From Pseudoramibacter alactolyticus ATCC 23263 (GTDB lineage: Bacteria > Bacillota > Clostridia > Eubacteriales > Eubacteriaceae), in the NCBI RefSeq assembly GCF_000185505.1, contig NZ_GL622359.1, forward strand, positions 965,412-1,029,411: a DNA stretch of 64,000 bases. The letters run 5' to 3'. Both the position numbers and the translations under genes were made by a program. Positions 1,222 to 40,028 of the stretch are shown here, piece after piece. The number at the start of each line of letters is the position of its first letter. The stretch's first letter is position 1. A model generated the notes under the pieces. That model saw nothing but the letters and a program-made list of their open reading frames with translations. It ran no database searches and was not told where the DNA came from.

Positions 1222-2259
1222 TCAGACCATTTCCGCCAATCCATAAATAAGCGCCTTCGATTTATCCCAGCCCAGGCAAGGATCGGTGATGGACTGACCG
1301 TAACACCCGCCGCCGATGGGCTGATTGCCGTCTTTCAGATAGCTTTCGATCATAAACCCCTTTACCAGCTGGTTGATGTCCGCCGAAACGCGACAGCTGT
1401 GCATCACGTCCTTGGCGATGCGTACTTGCTCCTGCCAGCGCTTGCCGGAATTGCAGTGATTAGTGTCCACGATCACCGCCGGGTTTTTAAGCTCGGCCTT
1501 TTCGTGATAGGCATCGAGCAATCCCTGCAGATCCTCATAATGATAATTGGGAAAGGTCCGCCCATATTGATTGACATAGCCCCGCAAAATGGCGTGCGCC
1601 AGCGGATTGCCGGCGGTTTTGACTTCCCAGCCGCGATAGAGAAAAGTGTGACCGTGCTGGGCTGCAATCAAGGAATTCATCATCACGGAAATATCGCCGG
1701 ATGTCGGATTTTTCATCCCTGCCGGGATGCCGATGCCGCTGGCCACGATGCGGTGCTGCTGATCCTCCACCGAGCGGGCGCCCACCGCCACATAGGCCAG
1801 CAAATCCGAAAGATAGCGGTGATTTTCCGGATAAAGCATTTCCTCTGCACAGGTAAAGCCCGTTTCGCGCACAGCGCGGGTGTGCATCTCGCGGATCGCG
1901 ATAATCCCCGTGAGCATATCCTCCTTCGCGTCGGGATCCGGTTGATGCAGCATGCCTTTGTAGCCCAGGCCCGTGGTCCGCGGCTTGTTGGTATAAACCC
2001 GCGGAATGATGAAAATTTTATCCTTCACCCGATCGGCAACCTTCGCCAGCCGATACAGATAATCGAGCACGGCGTCTTCACTGTCTGCCGAACAGGGGCC
2101 GATGATGAGCAGCAGCCGGTCGTCCTTGCCCGCAAAAATATCGGCAATCTGCTGATCCCGTTCTTCTTTAATCGCGGCAACCCGGGCGTTCAATGGAAAT
2201 TTTGTCTTCAATTCCTGGGGCGTCGGCATCTTCCTGAAAAATTCCATTTGCATATCCAT
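1222..2259 (-). CDS. aroF: 3-deoxy-7-phosphoheptulonate (DAHP) synthase, class I AroF/AroG type
   Basis: Catalyses the first step of the shikimate pathway, condensing phosphoenolpyruvate and erythrose 4-phosphate. The protein has 345 residues, close to the E. coli AroF/G/H length (about 350), with no chorismate mutase domain. Visible family blocks are LLLIIGPCSAD (metal-binding Cys), KPRTTGLGYKG (PEP site), GIPAGMKNPTSGD and DTNHCNSGK. An ATG at 2268 directly abuts the AAAGGAG ribosome site, so I place the start at the next ATG (2259), 9 bases after it. It is a single-gene unit with its own promoter and terminator. Feedback specificity (Tyr, Phe or Trp) cannot be read from the sequence. Confidence 0.93.
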   Translation of the reverse strand: MDMQMEFFRKMPTPQELKTKFPLNARVAAIKEERDQQIADIFAGKDDRLLLIIGPCSADSEDAVLDYLYRLAKVADRVKDKIFIIPRVYTNKPRTTGLGYKGMLHQPDPDAKEDMLTGIIAIREMHTRAVRETGFTCAEEMLYPENHRYLSDLLAYVAVGARSVEDQQHRIVASGIGIPAGMKNPTSGDISVMMNSLIAAQHGHTFLYRGWEVKTAGNPLAHAILRGYVNQYGRTFPNYHYEDLQGLLDAYHEKAELKNPAVIVDTNHCNSGKRWQEQVRIAKDVMHSCRVSADINQLVKGFMIESYLKDGNQPIGGGCYGQSITDPCLGWDKSKALIYGLAEMV

Positions 2260-4399: not shown

Positions 4400-4822
4400 T
4401 CATTTAAGCAGGCCGATGCCAATCAAGCAAAACACGATGCCGGCCACTTGTTTTAAATCGAGATGTTCTTTATAAAAAAGCACGCCCATCACCGCCAAAA
4501 CCACCGCCACGCAGATATTTGCGATGAGAGAAGCCTGGCTGACAGCCCAGCCGGCACGGTAAATCAAAAGATAGCCGGCCTCCAGTCCGATGATGGCCAA
4601 CCCCAGCGCCCAGGTGCTCCAATTCAAATGTCTGAAATCCGTCTGGAAATCGTGGGGCATGAACGCGAGATAAATAATCATGCAACAAATAAAGCTCACC
4701 AGATACGTCCCCGCCAGTGAAAGCATCGGGTTCGCATCGGGCGGCGTATTTTTTGACACATTATGATAGATCACATTGGATGCGATCACCATGACCATCG
4801 GCAAATAAACCATTAATTTCAT
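4400..4822 (-). CDS. Single-domain EamA/DMT-type transporter
   Basis: A 140-residue integral membrane protein with about five hydrophobic segments, ending with LDLKQVAGIVFCLIGIGLLK, the typical end of an EamA domain. It has one EamA unit rather than two, so it would need to dimerise, as half-size members of the drug/metabolite transporter superfamily do. The loop WAVSQASLIANICVAVVLAV is also family-like. Its start overlaps the stop of the upstream GNAT gene by four bases, so the two are translationally coupled and probably handle the same compound, which is unknown. The preceding leader suggests regulated expression. Confidence 0.72.
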   Translation of the reverse strand: MKLMVYLPMVMVIASNVIYHNVSKNTPPDANPMLSLAGTYLVSFICCMIIYLAFMPHDFQTDFRHLNWSTWALGLAIIGLEAGYLLIYRAGWAVSQASLIANICVAVVLAVMGVLFYKEHLDLKQVAGIVFCLIGIGLLK

Positions 4823-5235
4823 GCTAATGTCTTCTCCATGGTGATGTGCTCACAAAATTCATCCAAATAATTTTCCCCTTTAGCTGCATATCCCAGCTTT
4901 TCATAAAAAGACTGCACCCGCACCTGCGCCGAAAGCTGCAGTATCGGCACGCCTCGGCCTTTCAGCACTTTCTCCGCCGCCATGACCATTTGCGCACCGA
5001 AGCCTTCCCCGCGATGGGTTCGGATCACAGCAATGCGTCCGATGTGATAAGCTCCGGACGCGTCCCGGTAAAACCGACAGCAGCCCACGGCCTGATTGTT
5101 TTCATAAGCGACCAGATGGGTCGCCGTTTTATCCAACGCATCAAACTCGTCATGAAAGCCCTGCTCGTCGACAAAGACGGTCTGTCGGATGGTTCTCGCA
5201 TCCGGCGGCAGACCTGCCTGCATTCGTATTTCCAC
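4819..5235 (-). CDS. GNAT family N-acetyltransferase
   Basis: A 138-residue acetyl-CoA-dependent acyltransferase. Visible features are the substrate-side RQTVFVDEQGF, a block common to YjcF/ElaA-like GNATs, and the core IGRIAVIRTHRGEGFGAQMV, whose R-x-x-R-G-x-G-x-G/A pattern binds the acetyl-CoA pyrophosphate. A C-terminal LSAQVRVQSFYEKLGYAA completes the fold. A TTG lies upstream at 5256, but AAAGGGAG is placed 10 bases before the GTG at 5235, so I start there. It is the first gene of a two-gene unit with the EamA transporter. A modify-and-export pair is plausible, but the substrate is not identifiable. Confidence 0.85.
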   Translation of the reverse strand: MEIRMQAGLPPDARTIRQTVFVDEQGFHDEFDALDKTATHLVAYENNQAVGCCRFYRDASGAYHIGRIAVIRTHRGEGFGAQMVMAAEKVLKGRGVPILQLSAQVRVQSFYEKLGYAAKGENYLDEFCEHITMEKTLA

Positions 5236-5270
5236 GATTTCAAATCTCCCTTTCAATTTTTGCGTCCTTT

Positions 5271-5417
5271 AAAAAAGGATTCAAAGCCTCCCTTATAGCG
5301 CAAACGCGCCGTACCTGCGGTGAGGCTTTGAATCCTTGACACGCCACCCGGTGATGGCGCAGGACGTTTATTTTTTACAGCATCTTTATTATAGAAAAAA
5401 GGCTCGAAGCCTGTCAA
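5271..5417 (-). promoter_or_regulatory. Strong promoter and long structured leader with intrinsic terminator before GNAT-EamA (candidate riboswitch/attenuator)
   Basis: On the minus strand TTGACA (5417-5412), an 18-base spacer and TATAAT (5393-5388) form a near-consensus promoter. The transcript should start near 5381 and has about 146 bases before the GNAT start. It contains a short hairpin (CGCCA/TGGCG) and then a 16-bp perfect inverted repeat (5337-5322 with 5290-5275) followed by six T, a textbook intrinsic terminator placed ahead of the coding region. CGTCC near the 5' end can pair with GGACG just after the terminator. I could not match it to T-box, TPP, guanidine or other leader classes that I know. 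Confidence 0.62.
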
Positions 5418-28091: not shown

Positions 28092-28267
28092 AAAAAATCC
28101 CGAATGTGCCGTCCCATATTTTTGACGCCTAGCGGATGCTAGGTGGGTGCCCTGCTCTAAGCACCAGCCATCCGCTCAAAGGCGGCACGACATCGTCTAA
28201 GAGACATCCGGACTCCCTGTAAAAAGATGTAGGTTCAAAAATAGAGTGGTAACGTACACTTCAGGAT
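28092..28267 (-). ncRNA. ssrS: 6S RNA (ssrS/bsrA-like) candidate
   Basis: A promoter (TTTTCA, 17 bases, TATAAT at 28279-28274 on the minus strand) is followed by about 176 bases without an open frame. The first 16 bases (28267-28252) pair with a 3' segment at 28112-28097: eight pairs, one bulged A, four pairs, another bulge, three pairs, then six T. Internal helices (for example around GCACC at both sides of 28170, and CCGC/GCGG) support a long imperfect hairpin, the 6S RNA shape, which binds sigma-A RNA polymerase. Segments GAACCTACAT and GGCACCCACCTAG remind me of clostridial 6S sequences. Position near an Rrf2-desulfurase pair matches Bacillus synteny. Confidence 0.66.
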
Positions 28268-28344
28268 ATAAATATTATAGTCGATTTTTTTTATCTTGAA
28301 AAGGATAAAATCTTGCCACACTTTGCGGCGTTCCGAGCTTTATA

Positions 28345-39726: not shown

Positions 39727-40028
39727 AAAAAACGTCTCTTTATATCGTTTGATATAAAGAGACGGAGTAAACACATTTATTCCGCGGTACCACTCTTCTT
39801 GATATGAGCAACCACATATCCGCTTCAGGTCGGAGCTATGCTCTTAACCCTAATCCGTTAACGCCGGAATGGAAGTTTTCGGCCTCCCCTACTTTTGTTC
39901 CATTTGGGGTCGGCTGCTCACGAGTGATTATTGCGCATCCGCTTTTTATTGCCATCGCACCTACCGGCAACTCTCTTTAAAAAACTTGTGATGTTTTTCT
40001 CTCGTTCATCGCATTGTTATTTGATATT
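39727..40028 (-). promoter_or_regulatory. T-box riboswitch, probable isoleucine (ATC) specifier
   Basis: Minus-strand leader of the branched-chain operon. The T-box sequence AGAGTGGTACCGCGG lies at 39796-39782 and a strong terminator (13-pair stem GTCTCTTTATATC/GATATAAAGAGAC at 39763-39734, then six T) at its end. A stem I basal helix can be drawn between ACGAG (40005-40001) and CTCGT (39924-39920). Directly before its right strand lies ATC-A (codon 39928-39926), so an Ile specifier is most likely. Uncharged tRNA-Ile would therefore allow readthrough into cimA. Confidence 0.9.

Follow-up and report, generated by a model that had tools for sequence, protein, structure and literature searches.

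The window, by which we mean the whole 64,000-nucleotide stretch of Pseudoramibacter alactolyticus ATCC 23263 that was analysed, carries on its minus strand a strong promoter, a structured leader and two overlapping genes. The features are given below, in the order in which they would be transcribed.

5388..5417, minus strand: sigma-70 promoter (TTGACA 5417-5412, 18-nt spacer, TATAAT 5393-5388)
5340..5361, minus strand: P1 hairpin (arms 5361-5355 and 5346-5340, 7 pairs, loop TCACCGGG at 5354-5347)
5350..5352, minus strand: 5' half of the pseudoknot (kissing) helix, ACC within the P1 loop
5275..5337, minus strand: P2, which is the intrinsic terminator hairpin (perfect 16-bp lower stem, 5337-5322 with 5290-5275)
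5319..5321 with 5291..5292, minus strand: P2 above the lower stem (bulged A 5321; CC/GG, 5320-5319 with 5292-5291)
5310..5318, minus strand: conserved aptamer strand GCAGGTACG, in which GGT 5315-5313 is the 3' half of the pseudoknot
5298..5309, minus strand: D2 hairpin atop P2 (5 pairs), the defining feature of the Gd4v motif in PMC9788692
5293..5297, minus strand: conserved TATAA strand, with T5295 at the inferred D1 position (G in guanidine-IV)
5271..5276, minus strand: terminator T-run, TTTTTT
5246..5250, minus strand: ribosome-binding site GGGAG, read from the sequence
4819..5235, minus strand: GNAT acetyltransferase (GTG start, 138 aa; PF00583, E 4.5e-16; PF13673, E 7.8e-16)
4400..4822, minus strand: single-domain (half-size) EamA/DMT-type transporter (140 aa; PF00892, E 6.8e-10)

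The initial annotation had proposed a near-consensus promoter, a 146-base leader with a small hairpin and a 16-bp terminator stem plus T-run, and a GNAT gene coupled through ATGA to a half-size EamA gene, and all of these were recovered here. The promoter matches sigma-70 at 12 of 12 positions and has the top score in the 5 kb scanned; transcription would start near 5381, giving a leader of about 146 nt up to the GTG at 5235. The leader anatomy is confirmed by sequence and by folding, the segment 5382-5235 having an energy of -56.8 kcal/mol against -38.1 +/- 4.1 for its shuffles (z = -4.55; 0 of 200 as good). The two genes overlap at 4822-4819 and both were confirmed by Pfam, and the solved structure nearest to the GNAT is SACOL1063 (5jph). 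What had been taken for a plain terminator loop is more than that, since the conserved core of the aptamer and another hairpin, D2, lie within its 31 nt. We found no convincing further copy of the leader in its own genome, where it is single copy. Two ordinary RNAs also lie in the window according to Rfam, a T-box leader (39755-40018, minus strand, 98.8 bits) and a 6S RNA (28093-28270, minus strand, 76.6 bits).

We are confident that the window leader is a Gd4v-type (guanidine-IV-variant) riboswitch that works as a transcriptional ON switch. Gd4v is presented in the accessible text of Lenkeit et al. (2022, PMC9788692) as an orphan riboswitch candidate derived as a variant of guanidine-IV, with PRK07324 transaminases (in some cases in one operon with COG2423), GNATs and MATE transporters as its genes and sugE never in the set. 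The motif shares with the window leader a P1 and a terminator-like P2 joined by a pseudoknot, the D2 hairpin (5309-5298 in the window, and present in all 8 leaders of the set aligned below) and the gene contexts, which in the window and its relatives L151-L154 are GNAT, MATE and PRK07324 with an OCD-family gene. It also shares a D1 nucleotide other than G, which is U (T5295) in 8 of 8 leaders at a position deduced from the text and the mutants: D1 is described there as a nucleotide that guanidine-IV requires and that differs in Gd4v, where it is never G, and among the mutated positions of the L. lactis guanidine-IV RNA (G62, G66, U67 and G72) we chose the G72 equivalent because G66 and U67 were tested as conserved in Gd4v and G62 is only 90% conserved. 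The difference is that the window operon holds a half-size EamA gene, a family that neither Lenkeit paper, 2022 or 2020, mentions in its main text. The earlier assignment to a riboswitch or attenuator is right, whereas the description of the leader as uncharacterised does not hold, because a motif with these features was already published in 2022. It is not a new class but a new member of a known one, and the EamA association is a clue to the ligand.

A match to a known Rfam family had been named as the result that would deprive the leader of novelty. With Rfam 15, at the gathering score and at E 10, no riboswitch family was returned for the window leader or for the relatives tested, and the check is uninformative and its negative outcome misleading here, because related leaders likewise go unmatched; a missing Rfam match does not make a leader new. 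Guanidine-I (ykkC) also controls guanidine exporters, and leaders resembling it by eye precede SMR genes in relatives, but its structure is unrelated and the window leader has no Rfam match to it.

The proposed search for homologous leaders was more productive. Protein searches among 198 relatives found a GNAT-EamA pair in G034, of the same family, 45% identical, and upstream of it the same kind of promoter and leader, with the unpaired letters the same and the stems different: the loop TCACCGGG is followed inside the terminator by GCCGCAGGTACGG, a hairpin and TATAAGG. An intact Gd4v leader also stands in G013 (L045 / L094), where the EamA gene behind it is interrupted by an in-frame TAG, lacks an obvious ATG start and looks like a decaying target gene. 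A covariance model (R1) with only the window, G034 and G013 as sources matched G300, of another family, where leader, GNAT and EamA follow in the same order; the arrangement is thus present in three genomes (G000, G034, G300) from two families, and the same RNA lies upstream of a GNAT in G1009. Within the family of G300, R1 matches precede a GNAT (L151), MATE genes (L152, L154) and a transaminase (L153; 1603-2770) that belongs to PRK07324 with 531.8 bits against a cut-off of 476 and is followed by a gene of the ornithine cyclodeaminase/mu-crystallin family (OCD_Mu_crystall); L155, a weak and apparently decayed match, was excluded from the leader set. Promoters matching at 10-12 of 12 positions and ending 18-26 nt upstream of the motif occur in 6 of the 7 other leaders. 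The regions before 31 GNAT relatives (in Selenomonas, Mediterraneibacter, Bifidobacterium and others) gave no match to the RNA, so membership of this GNAT family is not enough to predict the leader. A search of plasmids found nothing, and two pattern matches in viral contigs were discarded because in both the terminator portion of the motif was missing. A guanidine-IV pattern run over 299 genomes gave 5 matches, about the count of the reversed-pattern control, none with a terminator, and these were likewise discarded.

The structure was tested on 8 Gd4v-type leaders (the window and its 7 closest relatives) over 24 pairs. Standard pairs fill 94.2% of the cells in this set and 94-96% over both alignments, against 31-37% in slid controls of the 8-leader test and 23-37% over both alignments, the pair counts being somewhat inflated, since the structure of the model guided the fitting of alignments A4 and A5. 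Changes on both sides were seen in 19 of the 24 pairs (0 of 500 shuffles as high), and the size of the effect and these two-sided changes are not explained by the model-fitted alignment alone. They include 7 of 7 pairs in P1, 8 of 9 in the upper stem of P2 and 4 of 5 in D2, whose five pairs are formed in every leader. G-Y-A-GGTACGG and ATAAG are invariant in all 8. A second set of 16, consisting of 12 Selenomonadales leaders and 4 of Gd4v type, gave the same result. The kissing helix has 3 bp only and, with its P1-loop ACC, is invariant within the 8 close leaders, and the pair A5352-U5313 is replaced by G-C in 11 of the 16 sequences.

How the leader may switch can be proposed by analogy with published work on Gd4v and guanidine-IV. 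In guanidine-IV, the ligand promotes kissing of the P1 loop with a loop in the terminator stem; this contact impedes full formation of the terminator, and the switching decision precedes transcription of the terminator. The available text of PMC9788692 adds that the P1-P2 linker becomes shorter once the terminator is complete and that Gd4v constructs yielded terminated product alone when ligand was left out. In the window, the linker measures 3 nt with the complete terminator and 11 nt when pairing in P2 is confined to its upper part, which is consistent with a mechanism like that of guanidine-IV. Without ligand, P2 would close completely, with about 3 nt separating it from P1, and the polymerase would terminate at the T-run. 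With ligand, the P1-loop ACC (5352-5350) would pair with GGU (5315-5313) in the internal loop of P2, and the ligand may lock together with the conserved loops and the core capped by D2 before the lower part of P2 forms, hindering the terminator so that GNAT and EamA are transcribed. We infer ligand-dependent antitermination of this kind for the window leader, and the kissing of ACC with GGU is its conserved alternative pairing. The initial annotation had pointed instead to a 5' CGTCC that can pair with a GGACG just after the terminator; this pairing does exist (5 pairs, or 6 with the next base), but it is probably not the switch and is not generally conserved, a comparable enclosing helix directly adjoining the motif being found in 1 of the 7 other leaders (G013, 7 bp), which is about chance level.

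An ordinary guanidine-IV riboswitch that senses guanidine, with EamA as the guanidine exporter, would account for the shared architecture and pseudoknot, and MATE and GNAT genes are common to both classes. Guanidine-IV (mepA / GGAM-1; PMC7736828; Salvail et al. 2020) has the same fold and kissing loop and uses the terminator as its expression platform; it controls mostly sugE, MATE and PnuC genes and has a guanidine KD near 0.2 mM (PMC7736828). However, it is without D2 and has G at D1, which differs from the window and its 7 closest relatives, and according to the accessible part of PMC9788692, PRK07324 contexts never occur with guanidine-IV and Gd4v RNAs bind guanidine at more than 1 mM or not at all. 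The contrast can be seen within the genus of the window, because G001 carries a guanidine-IV-like leader (L137, about 1385-1500, plus strand) without D2 and with G at D1 before sugE, the match to which is split over two frames. We thus consider a guanidine sensor at this locus very unlikely. A constitutive attenuator, or one controlled by an antiterminator or other protein and merely shaped like Gd4v, is a still less probable explanation: the terminator is strong and no Gd4v ligand was named in the literature searched, later papers included, but some 20 nucleotides, most of them in loops and bulges, stay invariant across two families while the stems covary freely and the genes downstream are diverse and unrelated, which together is the pattern of an aptamer. 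A perfect 16-bp repeat could by itself equally be a transposon-derived or chance inverted repeat beside two unrelated genes; yet it is single copy in the genome, leader and gene order are kept in other genera, and the compensatory changes refute this origin, to which we give almost no weight.

With the leader taken as Gd4v, the genes downstream become informative about its ligand. In the published work, as far as the available text goes, a Gd4v-controlled GNAT from Mitsuokella jalaludinii acetylated agmatine best, and neither agmatine nor guanidine was proved to be the natural ligand. The earlier idea of a modify-and-export unit fits, because the order of leader, GNAT and EamA recurs in G034 and G300, and the gene pair suggests acetylation of an amine followed by or alongside its export, the amine being guanidine-like; the window GNAT probably acetylates a guanidine-like compound, and the half-size EamA may export a guanidine-related, agmatine-like amine. 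A further hint to the ligand chemistry may lie in the L153 transaminase, whose next-best named relatives, both below their cut-offs, are GntC (the hydroxyarginine cyclodehydratase of the guanitoxin pathway) and capreomycidine synthase. Gd4v is a gut-associated orphan RNA found in several phyla, and a compact Gd4v-GNAT-EamA operon in two families narrows its ligand to an amine that can be both acetylated and exported. Because the GNAT and the small exporter are two proteins open to direct assay, the ligand question also becomes more testable.

Related leaders extend the link with EamA. In 11 Selenomonadales genomes a half-size EamA gene alone stands behind such a leader, and these leaders (L101-L103 and L105-L112, about 1501-1580) combine D2 with G at D1 and a GCC/GGC kissing pair, a mixture that is absent from the published contrast between guanidine-IV and Gd4v; they may represent a third specificity variant. 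Taken jointly, the half-size EamA proteins under these leaders could form a family that exports either the Gd4v ligand itself or its acetyl derivative, while the Selenomonadales leaders could be a further specificity variant between guanidine-IV and Gd4v, and the ligand could be hydroxyarginine-like or a cyclic guanidino amine; as a whole we regard this reading as possible but rather doubtful. Four more distant EamA relatives (L062, L068, L070, L071) have another type of leader in common, approximately YCGGRTGARCACCTRCCGY and then a terminator, which had no Rfam match. One Gd4v-like leader (L118, 1501-1577, plus strand) has a D2-like hairpin and A at D1, and the gene immediately downstream of it is an SMR gene of SugE type, a combination that the accessible text of PMC9788692 reports as absent for Gd4v. 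In another Gd4v-like leader (L104, 1501-1720), the nearest downstream reading frame is very short, and beyond it lie a second promoter-like stretch and then the gene of an Mrp-type ATPase.
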